Source of the DNA: a virus
DNA length: 40,913 nt
IMG/VR virus record: IMGVR_UViG_3300047552_000206
Span: 1 to 40,913 of that record
Reading direction: 5' to 3' (one strand)
This document shows positions 1,201 through 28,405 of the stretch, one piece after another (positions within the stretch are counted from its first letter, which is position 1; each line of letters begins with the position of its first letter). A model generated the notes under the pieces. The model did no database searches, had not been told where the DNA came from, and worked only from the letters and a program-made list of their open reading frames with translations. Both the position numbers and the translations under genes were made by a program.

Positions 1201-3087
1201 ATGTCTAAAAATGTGTTTGAAAAAGAAGAAGTGTTGGTAGACCCAACAGCAGAATTAGAAGCAGCGAAGTTAGAGATAACCCAGCAAATTTCAGCAGCCA
1301 AATTGCTGTTAAAGCAGGAGCAAAAGAAGTTAAGAGGCATCGAGAAGCTAGATATCGAAGTCATTACCGATAAGAATACTCGTATTGCCCAGCAAACTGA
1401 GAATATTCTCAAACTAAATGATGCTATTGCTGAATTGGAGTTTGATTTAAAGAGCTACAATCGTTCACGCGAAGATGAGAATGAAGAGCACATTCAGGCT
1501 GCTCTATTCAAGGTGGCTGAGTGGCTAAAGAAAGATTCGAGCGCGGCGTTTGTTATTGAGCGCGGCGAATACGTGTATGTTGACAATTACTCTATCACCC
1601 CACAGAAGCCAAACGTTCTGTTCCGTAATATTGAGCCTAACAAATTCATTCAAGAATTAGCAGTTGGTCTTGGTATCAAAATATGGCACCTACCTGCTCC
1701 TAGAGTTATCGACTTGTTTAACTCGGTGGGCAGAACTTATCATATGAGCCGATATTCTATCGATTCCAGACTGTGGAACAGCAGTAAAGTGTATCTACCA
1801 ATCAAGCATATGGAACCATATTTCATTAACAGAGATGAGGTAGAAGGCGAATACAGTGAATATTTCGATTGGCTCATGTACTCTCTTAGTGGTGGTAAAC
1901 TAGAGAATCAAGAGCATATCGAGCGCTGGATTGTTCATAAGGTGATTAATTACAGTAAAGCAGTTACTACTCCTGATATTGTTATTGTAGGTCACGTAGG
2001 TGGTAATGGTAAGGGTATCTTACAAGCTATCGTCAGATTGATGTTTCCAGCATCATTAAGTGGTAAAGCAACTACCAAGACACTGAAATCTCAATTCACT
2101 GCTATCTTGGTCGGTAAATTAATCGTGTTCTTTGATGACCAAGATTCTAAAGAAATCTCGCTTGATGTAGTCAAGCAGATGGCTGGCGCTGAGACTATGG
2201 TGTTCGAAGAGAAGGGTAAAGACCAATACGAAGCTGAGAAGACACATAGCAGTGCTTGGTTCGCTCAGGAGCTACCATTCAGATTAACACCTGGTGGCAA
2301 AGAAGGTGGTGTTGACCGAAGATTCTCTATTATGAGAACAAATATCACGTTCTTAGAGAGCATTCGTAAACACTATAAAACAGATAAGCCAGTTACAGTA
2401 GAAGAAAGCAAAGATGTAGCTGAGAATATCGTTAAAGAATTCTTAATCAACCGAGTTGAAGTAGCTAAGTGGTTCAAACACCTACAAGCAAAATACCCAG
2501 AAATTGATGAAAGCTACACGCTCAAAGCTCTACACGGTGAAGACTACCAGTACTTCTTAGACCAGCAGAACTTGGGCATTGATAAAGTATGGGATAAGTT
2601 AGTAGTTCCAGTCCTTAAAGAAGGCGGAGCTGTGCCATTATTTGTTATTAAAGAGCTTGTTCGTCATCTTGAGACTAACCATAGCGATAAGAAGATTGCT
2701 AATATGTTGCGCACGGTCATTGACCAAAGCAATATGTCAGTGGTCGTAGACAGACAATATATGACTATCACACCTAGTATTGTTAACAAGACCAAGCAGT
2801 TTACAGTAGTTCGTCCGAAGAGCTTAGAAGACTGGACGAATCGTGACTTCGACTGGTCATTAGTCAGTCGCACTCCATACAATAGTGCCCGTCTGACTGG
2901 CACACCGCTTATTCAAGAAGATGACTTCTGTTTCGGCGCTCCGATCGACGATGTTGCTATTCCAGTTGGCATCGCCTTCTGGGAAGATGATGACCATTCT
3001 GATCCAGTTGTTCCAGATTATAGGGAGCAAGACAGACCACCAACTGCCAATGATGTTATGAAACGACTGAATTCTACGCTGAAGTAA
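1201..3087 (+). CDS. SF3-like replicative helicase (NrS-1 polymerase/DUF5906-like)
   Basis: A 628-residue ATPase expected to unwind DNA at the phage replication fork. A P-loop is visible at residues 264-272 (GHVGGNGKG), a Walker B-like strand at 307-315 (LIVFFDDQD), and an arginine-finger-like DRRF at 372-375. These features and their spacing fit the superfamily-3 helicase domain of phage primase-helicases such as that of phage NrS-1 (DUF5906). Residues 14-85 are charged and heptad-like, probably a coiled coil. The start has a strong AAGGAG site. The primase domain normally fused N-terminally in this family is instead supplied by the gene just upstream. The gene ends at a strong terminator, and the candidate origin lies immediately downstream. 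Confidence 0.75.
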   Translation: MSKNVFEKEEVLVDPTAELEAAKLEITQQISAAKLLLKQEQKKLRGIEKLDIEVITDKNTRIAQQTENILKLNDAIAELEFDLKSYNRSREDENEEHIQAALFKVAEWLKKDSSAAFVIERGEYVYVDNYSITPQKPNVLFRNIEPNKFIQELAVGLGIKIWHLPAPRVIDLFNSVGRTYHMSRYSIDSRLWNSSKVYLPIKHMEPYFINRDEVEGEYSEYFDWLMYSLSGGKLENQEHIERWIVHKVINYSKAVTTPDIVIVGHVGGNGKGILQAIVRLMFPASLSGKATTKTLKSQFTAILVGKLIVFFDDQDSKEISLDVVKQMAGAETMVFEEKGKDQYEAEKTHSSAWFAQELPFRLTPGGKEGGVDRRFSIMRTNITFLESIRKHYKTDKPVTVEESKDVAENIVKEFLINRVEVAKWFKHLQAKYPEIDESYTLKALHGEDYQYFLDQQNLGIDKVWDKLVVPVLKEGGAVPLFVIKELVRHLETNHSDKKIANMLRTVIDQSNMSVVVDRQYMTITPSIVNKTKQFTVVRPKSLEDWTNRDFDWSLVSRTPYNSARLTGTPLIQEDDFCFGAPIDDVAIPVGIAFWEDDDHSDPVVPDYREQDRPPTANDVMKRLNSTLK

Positions 3088-3089
3088 AG

Positions 3090-3112
3090 AAAAGGGGCTC
3101 TGAGCCCCTTTT
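3090..3112 (+). terminator. Intrinsic terminator after helicase gene
   Basis: AAAAGGGGC-TCTGA-GCCCCTTTT is a perfect GC-rich hairpin followed by T-residues, starting three bases after the helicase stop codon. Because it is preceded by A-residues, it could stop transcription from either direction. It separates the replication operon from the repeat-rich non-coding block. Confidence 0.9.
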
Positions 3113-3175
3113 CTACGTCTAGCAAGCACGTTGTATGTGCTCGTGAACACCGTCTGTTTTTCGACGTGCTTGTTC

Positions 3176-3211
3176 AAAAAGTGCTCTGGCGCTATCAAAA
3201 CCGCAATATTT
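3176..3211 (+). repeat. 36-bp origin-region box, copy 1
   Basis: This 36-bp segment, starting AAAAAGTGCTCTGG, recurs at 3355-3390 with two substitutions. Both copies have an ACGTGCTTG iteron shortly before and a CAAGCACGT iteron shortly after, so the whole flanked unit appears duplicated. Its role is unknown. Confidence 0.7.
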
Positions 3212-3254
3212 CACTCAAACAAGCACGTAAGCACGTACAATCATGTTTATTGCT

Positions 3255-3298
3255 AGAAAAAGAGACAAAAATAAAAAAAATAAAAAAAAATATTTTAG
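3255..3298. other. A/T-rich tract, candidate DNA-unwinding element
   Basis: A tract of almost pure A and T (runs of eight and nine A on the + strand) lies between the two groups of iterons. In iteron-type origins such a tract is where the duplex first melts. The assignment is by position and composition only. Confidence 0.45.
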
Positions 3299-3354
3299 CT
3301 GGTCCAGATTTGAGAAAACAACGTGCTTACGTGCTTACGTGCTTGTTTAGACAT

Positions 3355-3390
3355 AAAAAGTGCTCTGGAGCTATCAAAAACGCAATATTT
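3355..3390 (+). repeat. 36-bp origin-region box, copy 2
   Basis: Second copy of the box at 3176-3211, differing at two positions (GGAG for GGCG and AAACG for AACCG). It is flanked by iterons at 3337-3345 and 3394-3402. Confidence 0.7.
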
Positions 3391-3481
3391 GAACAAGCAC
3401 GTTGAAAAACGAACGTGCTTGTACGTGCTTGTTACGTGCTTGTTACGCGCTTGTAGTTACATTCAACTGATCTGTTTAAGC

Positions 3482-3488
3482 ATAAATA
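3482..3488 (+). promoter_or_regulatory. ATAAATA motif (T4-late-like), possible ncRNA promoter
   Basis: ATAAATA just downstream of the iterons. If used like a T4 late promoter (TATAAATA), transcription would start near 3494 and run into the hairpin series at 3586-3676 with no gene of its own before 3787. It is one of ten such motifs found in the gaps of this window. Confidence 0.3.
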
Positions 3489-3493
3489 TCTCT

Positions 3494-3676
3494 GTACTCC
3501 TATGGTACACTGTCCAGTCAGACTTTAAACGACAGCAGATACCAACCCTTCGCGCTAAATTAGCTGTAGAATGGTTTATTCTCGCTTGACCAAGCTCTTA
3601 AATGGTCAATCTACTAGTGATTAAAGCCCACTAGTAGTGCTGATAACAACTTAGTTGTTGGCATTTTTTAATTTTT
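3494..3676 (+). ncRNA. Candidate structured non-coding RNA
   Basis: A roughly 180-nt region with no credible gene has three successive perfect inverted repeats: TTGACCA/TGGTCAA (3586-3592/3603-3609), CTACTAGTG/CACTAGTAG (3611-3619/3629-3637) and AACAAC/GTTGTT (3645-3650/3654-3659), the last followed by T-runs like a terminator. A promoter-like ATAAATA lies just upstream. This may be a small RNA, or these may be DNA structures belonging to the adjacent origin. The 5' end is a guess from the motif; no known RNA family is recognised. Confidence 0.3.
3645..3676 (+). terminator. Probable terminator hairpin
   Basis: AACAAC-TTA-GTTGTT followed by GGCATTTTTTAATTTTT. The stem is short and A/T-rich but the T-run is good. 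Confidence 0.5.
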
Positions 3677-3703
3677 CTATTATATGATATGTGATGGTAT
3701 CTT

Positions 3704-3735
3704 AGACCTGTAGTGTAAAAGACTACGGGTCTTTT
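3704..3735 (+). terminator. Intrinsic terminator upstream of the small-gene operon
   Basis: AGACCTGTAGT (3704-3714) pairs with ACTACGGGTCT (3722-3732), allowing one T-G pair, around a 7-nt loop, followed by TTTT. It would insulate the small-gene operon from transcription through the origin region. Confidence 0.65.
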
Positions 3736-3745
3736 GCTTGCACTA

Positions 3746-3773
3746 TTGACAAATAAACATTACGTGTTATCAT
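3746..3773 (+). promoter_or_regulatory. Sigma-70-like promoter for the small-gene operon
   Basis: TTGACA at 3746-3751 and TATCAT at 3768-3773, separated by 16 bp, form a good host-type promoter directly after a terminator. Its start site would be near 3780, leaving almost no leader before the ATG at 3787. An ATAAATA motif overlaps the same place (3776-3782). Confidence 0.55.
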
Positions 3774-3775
3774 TG

Positions 3776-3782
3776 ATAAATA
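3776..3782 (+). promoter_or_regulatory. ATAAATA motif 4 nt before gene start
   Basis: GATAAATAC ends 4 nt before the ATG at 3787. If it acts as a T4-type late promoter, the transcript would begin at or next to the start codon and be leaderless. No Shine-Dalgarno site is present. Confidence 0.35.
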
Positions 3783-3786
3783 CTCT

Positions 3787-4158
3787 ATGACTATACAATC
3801 AAACAAATCATTTAAAGCAGCTAAACCCACCAAGTTGAAGCTAGATATCGCTACCTTATATAAGTTCGCGTTATCTAAGATGAAGACAACTGCCGAGAAG
3901 TTTAAGGCAGATACTCAGCGTAAGATTAGCTTATCAAGTGCCAAGTACATCAGGACCGACAGAATTTTTTTCAGTAAAATCTGTCCGATCACCAATCAAC
4001 CATACTACCGTGACGAACTCATCTATGAGACTGCCAACTACTTTATTCGTACCACTGTACACGGCAAGATTATCGATATTGAGACGAAGCCACGCTCGGT
4101 GTTTAAGCCGCAGGTAGTAGTTAAAGTGCGCCGCACATTTAATAGGAACACAAAATGA
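3787..4158 (+). CDS. Hypothetical basic protein
   Basis: A 123-residue, lysine/arginine-rich protein of unknown function that opens a run of small genes. The centre holds ICPITNQPYY (about residues 65-74), with a single cysteine and no recognisable domain. High positive charge suggests nucleic-acid binding, but this is only inferred. The ATG at 3787 lacks a Shine-Dalgarno site and lies within a few bases of the predicted transcription start, so it may be translated from a leaderless mRNA; a later ATG at 3880 is possible but also lacks a ribosome-binding site. It overlaps the next gene by ATGA. Confidence 0.65.
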   Translation: MTIQSNKSFKAAKPTKLKLDIATLYKFALSKMKTTAEKFKADTQRKISLSSAKYIRTDRIFFSKICPITNQPYYRDELIYETANYFIRTTVHGKIIDIETKPRSVFKPQVVVKVRRTFNRNTK

Positions 4159-4535
4159 GCACCGAACATTTCAGAGACAAACGCGGTTCAACCAGATGGT
4201 ACAGATACACTGATACTGGTATCGAGCGCAAGGTAGTATTTGCTGGCGAGCCATTACCAGACCATACTTGGACACAGGGTATCGCGCCAACTATTACAGA
4301 TGAGCGCAGACAGTCATCTAGCGCTAGATTCCGTGGTGTGCCAAAGACAGACACTCAAAAATCTAAGATGAGAGCAGCCAAGCTAGGCGTTGCTAAGACT
4401 GCCCAACATAAATCAAATATGCGCGCATCACAACTAGCACACTCCGCGGAAGTTAAAGCTATTATGGAGGAGACACCGCTAACATACAGAGAAGCACAGC
4501 TCGAACTTAAACGCAGAAAGGCTCTACTTAAATGA
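4155..4535 (+). CDS. NUMOD3-like DNA-binding protein
   Basis: A 126-residue basic protein. Its second half carries two successive short helices with the spacing of NUMOD3 modules (about residues 55-95, including KSKMRAAKLG and HKSNMRASQ), which are DNA-contacting motifs in phage homing endonucleases. The first half (WYRYTDTGIERKVV and then a tryptophan and proline-containing segment) resembles the short region often preceding these motifs in phage proteins. No GIY-YIG or HNH catalytic motif is visible, so this is either a stand-alone DNA-binding protein or the remnant of a nuclease. It starts at the ATGA overlap with the upstream gene and ends in an ATGA overlap with the next. Confidence 0.6.
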   Translation: MSTEHFRDKRGSTRWYRYTDTGIERKVVFAGEPLPDHTWTQGIAPTITDERRQSSSARFRGVPKTDTQKSKMRAAKLGVAKTAQHKSNMRASQLAHSAEVKAIMEETPLTYREAQLELKRRKALLK

Positions 4536-26377: not shown

Positions 26378-28405
26378 ATGAGTTTACAATTACGCAGAGG
26401 CTTAGAAGCCGACAGAACAACAATCGTGCCAGCAGCTGGTGAATTACTTTATGTAACTGATACTAAGAAACTATATGTTGGTGATGGCGCTACTAGTGGT
26501 GGCACTGCTGTTAGTGTTGGTGGTAGTGGTGGTGGCGGCCAGAACTATGCTCCATGGTCACGTAATACAGAATGGCTAACCTTACCAACCTTAACGGATA
26601 CCGACCAGAGATTTGCTGGCTTACACGCGGTAGAAGAAGATGGCAACTGGGTAGCACTAACAGCTACTACTAGTGTTGGACAATACCGCGTAGATTGGGG
26701 CGATGGTACCGTTGATTTAGTTGACAGCGGCGTTCAAGCGCAGCATATCTATGATTTCACTAATACTGCTCTGAATGGTAGTTTAACTACTAGTGGATAT
26801 AAACAAGCTATTGTTAGTGTTACTCCAGTTAGTGGTAACTTCTTGACATTTAGTTTAGGTGTAAGACATTCTGCTGGTCCGGCTACCTTATATAGTAGTG
26901 GCTGGTTAGATATTGCCTATGCGGGACAGAATACCACTTCGTTTACTACAGTTGGTCAAATTCAGGCGCGTAGATTAGAGCAATCAACTATCTTAAAGAA
27001 CGATGTTACTAACTGGACATCCTGCTATCAAAATTGTTACAAACTATCAAATATCGTTAGTCATTATACAGATAGTGGAACTAACTTCGACCAGATGTTC
27101 TACAACTGCTCGTCCCTACAAACTATTCCGTTATTAAATACTGGATTGGGAACTAACTTCACCCAGATGTTCTACAACTGCTCGTCCCTACAAACTATTC
27201 CGTTATTAAATACTGGATTGGGAACTATCTTCGCCCAGATGTTCTACGACTGCTCGTCCCTACAAACTATCCCCCTATTGAATACCGCAGCAGGAACTAA
27301 CTTCACCCAGATGTTCTCCTTCTGCTCGTCCCTACAAACTATTCCGTTATTAAATACTGGATTGGGAACTAACTTCGACCAGATGTTCTACAACTGCTCG
27401 TCCCTACAAACTATCCCCCTATTGAATACCGCAGCAGGAACTATCTTCGCCCAGATGTTCTACAACTGCTCGTCCCTACAAACTATCCCCCTATTGAATA
27501 CCGCAGCAGGAACTAACTTCGGCTCGATGTTCTCCTACTGCTCGTCCCTACAAACTATCCCCCTATTGAATACCGCAGCAGGAACTAACTTCACCCAGAT
27601 GTTCTACAACTGCTCGTCCCTACAAACTATTCCGTTATTAAATACTGGATTGGGAACTAACTTCACCCAGATGTTCTCCTTCTGCTCGTCCCTACAAACT
27701 ATTCCCCTATTGAATACCGCAGCAGGAACTATCTTCGCCCAGATGTTCTACAACTGCTCGTCCCTAAAGAAAATCTCTGCGCAATCGTTTAGATATTCAT
27801 TCGACGTGTCACCAGCATTATTAACATTAACGCAGTTAAACTCCGTCTATACTAACCTACCAGATATTGGTACCGCCGTAACATTCCAAGACACTGGTGA
27901 TACTATTACGCTGGCTAATCACGGTCTAGTAAACGGTAAGATTATTAAGTTCTCAGTTATCACAACAACTACTGGTATCGCAGTCAATACTAACTACTAT
28001 GTGGTTAACTCTACCGCTAATACATTCCAAGTTTCTACTACTAGTGGCGGCACAGCACTAGCATTAACAACTGATGGCACAGGATATATTGCTGGTAAAC
28101 TAGTTACTCTACAAGATACGGGTGATACTGTTACGCTTGCTAATCACGGTTATACCGCTAAGCAACCTATCACGTTCTCTGTTGTTAATACTACAACGGG
28201 TATCACAGCAGCTACTCAGTATTATGTGATTAACCCAACTACAAATACTTTCCAAGTTTCTACTACTAGTGGCGGCACAGCACTAGCATTAACTACAAAC
28301 GGCACAGCTATCGCATACGGTTCAACAACAATCACTGCCTCTACGTTTAGCAAGACTGGCTCAACACCAACAATCGCTCAAAACAAGGGCTGGATCGTTC
28401 TATAA
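26378..28405 (+). CDS. Tail fibre with mosaic 24-residue DUF285/BspA-like repeats
   Basis: A 675-residue adhesin. Domains in order: virion-attachment domain (1-45, TDTKKLYVGDG); glycine linker; PKD-like domain with DWGDG (about 104-108); ten 24-residue repeats of the form NF-x-QMFYNCSSLQTIPLLNT (residues 236-475), the DUF285/BspA leucine-rich pattern; two tandem 75-residue domains (501-647) with DTGDT-TLANHG and YYV-N-T-NTFQVSTTSGG; a short end. The repeats are nearly identical in DNA and mix a few variants in different combinations. It probably binds a host surface receptor. A good AAGGAAA site precedes the ATG. Confidence 0.75.
   Translation: MSLQLRRGLEADRTTIVPAAGELLYVTDTKKLYVGDGATSGGTAVSVGGSGGGGQNYAPWSRNTEWLTLPTLTDTDQRFAGLHAVEEDGNWVALTATTSVGQYRVDWGDGTVDLVDSGVQAQHIYDFTNTALNGSLTTSGYKQAIVSVTPVSGNFLTFSLGVRHSAGPATLYSSGWLDIAYAGQNTTSFTTVGQIQARRLEQSTILKNDVTNWTSCYQNCYKLSNIVSHYTDSGTNFDQMFYNCSSLQTIPLLNTGLGTNFTQMFYNCSSLQTIPLLNTGLGTIFAQMFYDCSSLQTIPLLNTAAGTNFTQMFSFCSSLQTIPLLNTGLGTNFDQMFYNCSSLQTIPLLNTAAGTIFAQMFYNCSSLQTIPLLNTAAGTNFGSMFSYCSSLQTIPLLNTAAGTNFTQMFYNCSSLQTIPLLNTGLGTNFTQMFSFCSSLQTIPLLNTAAGTIFAQMFYNCSSLKKISAQSFRYSFDVSPALLTLTQLNSVYTNLPDIGTAVTFQDTGDTITLANHGLVNGKIIKFSVITTTTGIAVNTNYYVVNSTANTFQVSTTSGGTALALTTDGTGYIAGKLVTLQDTGDTVTLANHGYTAKQPITFSVVNTTTGITAATQYYVINPTTNTFQVSTTSGGTALALTTNGTAIAYGSTTITASTFSKTGSTPTIAQNKGWIVL
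27083..27802 (+). repeat. Ten tandem 72-bp coding repeats
   Basis: Units start every 72 bp from 27083 to 27731, encoding 24 residues each. Variant positions: NFD, NFT, IFA or NFG at the start; YN, YD, SF or SY after MF; and GL or AA before the last G-T. The GL and AA halves also use different synonymous codons for I-P-L-L-N-T (ATT CCG TTA TTA versus ATC CCC CTA TTG). Unit nine begins ATT CCC CTA TTG, a hybrid of the two. The tenth unit diverges after CSSL. Confidence 0.95.
28025..28293 (+). repeat. 44-bp identical segments of tandem fibre domains
   Basis: The stretch at 28025-28068 is repeated exactly at 28250-28293, 225 bp (75 codons) later, within the two tandem C-terminal domains of the fibre. 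The perfect identity points to recent duplication or gene conversion. Confidence 0.9.

Follow-up and report, generated by a model that had tools for sequence, protein, structure and literature searches.

The phage DNA analysed here carries a dense cluster of short repeats immediately after a helicase gene, which raises the question of what this cluster does and which protein reads it. The window, that is, the whole stretch of 40,913 nucleotides in the IMG/VR virus record IMGVR_UViG_3300047552_000206, contains its own genes for terminase, portal, major head, tape measure and tail proteins. This makes it a tailed phage rather than a satellite, which would need a helper phage for its virion proteins. 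Its primase or primase-polymerase gene (49-1134, + strand, 361 aa) is assigned to the archaeo-eukaryotic type by profile matches (PHROG primase and polymerase/primase families, best E-value 2.2e-13) and a DxD-containing motif visible in the sequence, because the AlphaFold model is too poor to be used (mean pLDDT 40.6). A separate gene (1201-3087, + strand) encodes an SF3 helicase of 628 aa of the D5/P4/SaPI type (DUF5906, E-value 1.3e-10). It scores 36.8 bits against TIGR01613, the P4-family primase C-terminal profile, where the cut-off is 108.7, and is at most a distant relative of that domain. Shortly 3′ of the repeats lies a gene for a basic protein of 123 aa (3787-4158), for which profile searches gave no family match. 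A DNA search with the initial 8 kb of the window as query found no match among GenBank phages, an alignment of the helicase to bacterial genomes found no relative, and Rfam returned only sub-threshold, chance-like matches over 2900-4200. A separate 27.9-kb contig, IMGVR_UViG_3300042988_000146, is identical to the window throughout the 11 kb compared and begins at the same base; this common start could be either an assembly break common to both or a physical genome end.

The array (3123-3453) exists far above chance. It comprises eight exact copies of CAAGCACGT (3123+, 3164-, 3220+, 3337-, 3394+, 3413-, 3423- and 3434-) and four with one mismatch (3228+, 3321-, 3329- and 3445-), and the rest of the 41 kb holds only five scattered one-mismatch matches. 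For the 350 bp that follow the helicase stop codon, none of 500 dinucleotide shuffles contained an 8-mer as frequent in both orientations. A first-pass annotation had described about twelve copies in both orientations within 333 bp, four of them 10-11 bp apart and three overlapping at 8-bp spacing, with an A/T tract between groups. All of this is borne out: the iterons at 3413, 3423, 3434 and 3445 are spaced by 10-11 bp, those at 3321, 3329 and 3337 by 8 bp with a one-base overlap, and the tract is a pure A/T run of 31 bp (3267-3297).

Three further features had escaped that annotation. A terminator-like inverted repeat (3088-3114, + strand) separates the helicase gene from the array, the first iteron of which begins about 35-36 nt beyond the stop codon. 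Secondly, the left core arm with its two forward iterons (3217-3237) forms an exact 21-nt inverted repeat with 3328-3348, which is part of the right core arm with three reverse iterons (3321-3348); the two halves are 90 nt apart, enclose the A/T run and make the inner iteron groups symmetrical around it. Thirdly, a 36-bp direct repeat that is unrelated in sequence to the iteron occurs at 3176-3211 and 3355-3390 (both + strand, 94% identical). The cumulative GC skew, proposed earlier as a check, shows no clear turning point at the array, and it is weak evidence either way because nearly all large ORFs of the window lie on one strand. Elsewhere, strong local GC skew is seen at 27257-27689, inside an ORF with a tail fibre family match (26378-28405), where the 8-mer TCCCTACA occurs seven times within ~430 bp.

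Relatives were collected by searching with the helicase and the terminase; a helicase-based search for further relatives, for which the short peptide patterns were restrictive, yielded few loci. In L006, L007, L025, L055, L087, L092, L093, L094, L038, L078, L101 and L103, the gap after the SF3 helicase gene has the order iteron, A/T tract, inverted iteron, and the array lies directly 3′ of that gene except in L025, where one small ORF intervenes. The words differ completely between groups: ATATCACA in L006, GGTAACAC in L007, AGTCTCTC in L025, TGTGAACGA in L055, L087, L092, L093 and L094, AATAACTGCGTAA in L078, AGCAGAGTA in L038, AATTGAGTA in L101 and AAGAAGTGCGTA in L103. In L072, the best 8-mer is no better than in shuffles and there is a single weak inverted pair, AAGTGAGAA. 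An arm-finding script detected exact inverted arms around the A/T tract, 64-96 bp apart, in nine phages, and the arms of Streptococcus satellite phage Javan304, the PICI control, are 87 bp apart, compared with 90 in the window. For L087, L092, L078, L072 and L101, the layout was judged by eye, the script having found no arms or another pair. As far as these sequences indicate, the 9-mer changes between relatives while the architecture after the SF3 helicase gene is conserved. The first-pass annotation would have counted missing conservation of the 9-mer array in relatives against its proposal, which would have misled, since the word changes and the architecture stays.

Some of these relatives also share a non-iteron element. 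In L072 (6906-7010), L101 (2143-2260), L103 (2946-3070) and L078 (6176-6290), the stretch from the left iterons to the A/T tract contains a sequence like CGAGGTCAGTCGC, which is common to this helicase clade despite differing iteron words.

The most informative comparisons are those in which the word changes between otherwise close phages. The DNA of L055 and L078 matches at 91% identity as far as the beginning of the helicase gene, and again at 83-85% from L055:3111 onwards, where the last iteron ends. The interval between those points shows no match at the DNA level; it encodes helicases of 28% identity and carries different words, whereas the terminase is 97% identical and flanking genes stay at 70-98%. 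In the same manner, L092 and L072 are 94% identical up to L092:2976, and from 4847 their identity is 76%, rising to 83-90%; similarity returns 6 bp past the last iteron, and a single 93-bp patch matches in between. Judged by these alignments, helicase and array have been swapped as one cassette in both pairs. This bears on the possibility that the array is no origin at all but a regulatory or segregation site such as an operator cluster, a centromere-like site or a packaging site, roles that are also served by clustered short repeats. Such a role is improbable, given that the array is co-inherited with a replicative helicase and not with the terminase, and that symmetrical arms around an A/T run agree with experimentally tested PICI origins such as pri-rep-ori of EcCICFT073 (PMC6092414). 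Architecture, position and comparison with relatives all back the earlier proposal of a candidate origin, and the array very probably is the replication origin of this tailed phage.

Which protein reads the array can be addressed through the helicase itself. The first-pass annotation had considered the initiator not obvious, but an SF3 helicase gene ends 35 bp upstream and the word follows the helicase. The AlphaFold model of the helicase shows helices at 459-473, 480-490 and 496-509 followed by strands at 514-524 and 531-539, an order typical of a winged helix; the predicted domain corresponds to codons 459-540 (2575-2820, + strand) and is the proposed iteron reader, with helix 496-509 (2686-2727) as its third, recognition helix. 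The protein was modelled unbound and confidence is moderate (about 65-80 in the winged helix), and, with a mean pLDDT of only 66.6, the structural details are tentative. Among known folds, the model agrees best with the helicase region of NrS-1 (Foldseek E-value 6.6e-11; VIA-align Z 18.4, rmsd 7.6 over 350 residues, within 98-540). The SaPI5 primase-helicase 7om0 also matches (Z 13.7, rmsd 8.4 over 382 residues, within 81-576), as do PriRep1 with dsDNA (7pds) and, further down, viral D5-type helicases and AsfvPrimPol. On this moderate-confidence model, the protein has an SF3/D5 initiator fold with a C-terminal DNA-binding domain. When the helicases of the window, L006 and L007 are compared, conservation is lowest in a 30-residue stretch starting at about 490-502 (none of 2000 column shuffles was as low), and this stretch covers the predicted recognition helix.

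The winged helix differs from the rest of the protein in how it follows the word. In comparisons inside helicase clades, phage pairs whose words differ share 66-89% identity in the SF3 core but only 35-49% in the winged helix, compared with 84-97% and 70-93%, respectively, in same-word pairs. The winged-helix identities of the two kinds of pair do not overlap, and the Mann-Whitney p value of 0.0003 is indicative only because the pairs are non-independent and the same-word pairs all come from one clade, so that the comparison amounts to few independent events.

The primase behaves differently. In an origin resembling that of NrS-1, the iterons would be words in the template from which the primase-polymerase (49-1134) begins synthesis, with the helicase merely unwinding. 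The primase-polymerase of NrS-1 recognises an 8-nt word (PMC8775771), and its helicase region is the top fold match noted above. However, primases that are 92% identical (L055 and L078) or 87% identical (L072 and L092) accompany different words. Conversely, L055 shares its word with L092 and L094, although the primases are only 54-55% identical (54% for L092); its helicase is 81% identical to that of L092 and 76% to that of L094. Because near-identical primases accompany different words, the primase is a poor candidate for the reader, and an origin of this kind is very unlikely here. Hardly credible is a reading of the array by another phage protein or a host protein: the 123-aa product is small, basic, encoded just 3′ of the array and of no known family, but it is a poor candidate because its counterpart in L013, similar by eye, keeps the gene order without an SF3 helicase or array. 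The flanking genes remain similar across the L055/L078 word change, and a host reader would leave different words in otherwise near-identical phages unaccounted for. In L013 (1-6000), the downstream genes are similar, and its replication module must differ because neither the helicase nor the array is present at this place.

Collectively, these comparisons indicate that the word travels together with the helicase, including its C-terminal winged helix, and independently of the primase, and the tail domain of the helicase is most likely the reader. Of the three candidate binders named in the first-pass annotation, the primase, the helicase and the 123-aa protein, only the helicase thus retains its standing. 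We put the probability at roughly four in five that 3123-3453 is the origin and the helicase its initiator, with the C-terminal winged helix binding the AAGCACGT iterons and the arms and A/T run serving in melting. From the array, its symmetry, the layout in relatives, the coupling of word and winged helix and the cassette exchange, all read from sequence, we infer binding, melting, direction and replication start as follows. The winged helix would bind the iterons and, since the inner groups are mirror images around 3267-3297, helicase rings would assemble at both arms (3217-3237 and 3321-3348). By analogy with SaPI Rep, PICI origins and P4 alpha, the helicase would melt the A/T run, load itself and form rings that move apart, after which the separate primase would prime the exposed strands. 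The iterons outside the core (3123, 3164 and 3394-3453) may add affinity or regulate. A more speculative and rather unlikely extension is that origin words are under diversifying selection, the winged helix and iterons changing together faster than the helicase core and helicase-origin cassettes being swapped, perhaps against satellites or decoy origins or for replication incompatibility of co-infecting phages.

The duplicated spacer appears to follow another path. The sequence AAAAAGTGCTCTGG(A/C)GCTATCAAAA occurs between iterons twice in the window and once in L025, where a stretch of the array is identical to 27 nt of the second window copy. Across all viral contigs, the pattern GTGCTCTGG[AC]GCTATCAAA was found only in the window phage and in IMGVR_UViG_3300047558_000148. 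The spacer goes with something other than the helicase, because it is common to the window and L025 despite helicases that are 23% identical and words that differ. The primases of these two phages are 68% identical; L006 lacks the spacer, and its primase shares about 60% identity with each of them. As a lead only, it possibly travels with the primase as a priming site.

Two small elements in the neighbourhood can be recorded separately. Upstream of the small basic gene, a hairpin with the identical loop ATTAAAGCC is found in the window (3611-3637), L010 (2688-2720) and L013 (5616-5648), and it stays when helicase and array change. Its stem is CTACTAGTG/CACTAGTAG in the window and CCCTCTAG/CTAGGGGG in L010 and L013; that the loop is preserved while the stem varies points to a functional RNA or a terminator. 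The sequence GATAAATAC, resembling a late-type promoter box, lies in intergenic gaps of the window (3775-3783), L006 (8588-8596 and 8821-8829) and L010 (2429-2437).

The natural exchanges of initiator and origin provide unusually clear natural evidence for their joint change. Together with pairs of changed and unchanged word at similar core identity, they form a data set on how a replication winged helix reads DNA, which can also be used to ask whether avoidance of satellites or rivals leads phages to diversify their origins.

Several known systems resemble the window in part. The alpha protein of phage P4 contacts the repeats of its origin through a C-terminal winged helix (PMC4234260). Its helicase is SF3-type with this domain, as is predicted for the window helicase, but alpha also contains a Toprim primase of the bacterial kind, whereas the window encodes its archaeo-eukaryotic primase in a gene of its own. 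Phage P4 also has a second site, crr. NrS-1 has one fused primase-polymerase-helicase, whereas the window has two genes, and here the word is uncoupled from the primase. The origins of Streptococcus thermophilus phages are possibly similar to that of the window, and the open-licence literature on them provided no usable source. SCCmec Cch2 is likewise a D5-type helicase with downstream repeats that are bound by its isolated C-terminal domain (PMC7581432); it differs in residing in a chromosomal cassette and in having three 5-nt iterons and the CCPol-MP primase-polymerase. The pRN1 and BIP-1 type shares the archaeo-eukaryotic primase, the SF3 helicase, the winged helix and an origin located 3′ (PMC4234260), but its recognition element is a long stem-loop, shown for pRN1 and proposed for BIP-1, instead of an iteron array.

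The closest likeness is to the origins of PICIs, both SaPIs and those of Gram-negative hosts. An A/T-rich region with one iteron set on each side, located immediately after the initiator gene, characterises these origins (PMC6092414), and SaPI Rep uses its C-terminal domain to recognise iterons that lie just 3′ of its own gene (PMC7581432). The window shares the order of primase gene, SF3-type initiator helicase gene and an origin immediately 3′, with its two iteron sets (3217-3237 and 3321-3348) around 3267-3297. It differs in having iterons outside this core and a duplicated non-iteron spacer of 36 bp. According to PMC6092414 in 2018, no other known bacterial replicon had the PICI origin layout. 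The layout of the window origin is thus of the known PICI type and, as judged from the open-licence literature, to which later or subscription reports may add, it is placed here in tailed phages that supply their own virion proteins, with a likely initiator named: PICI and SaPI origins reside in satellites, whereas the module described here resides in phages with terminase, portal, capsid and tail genes.
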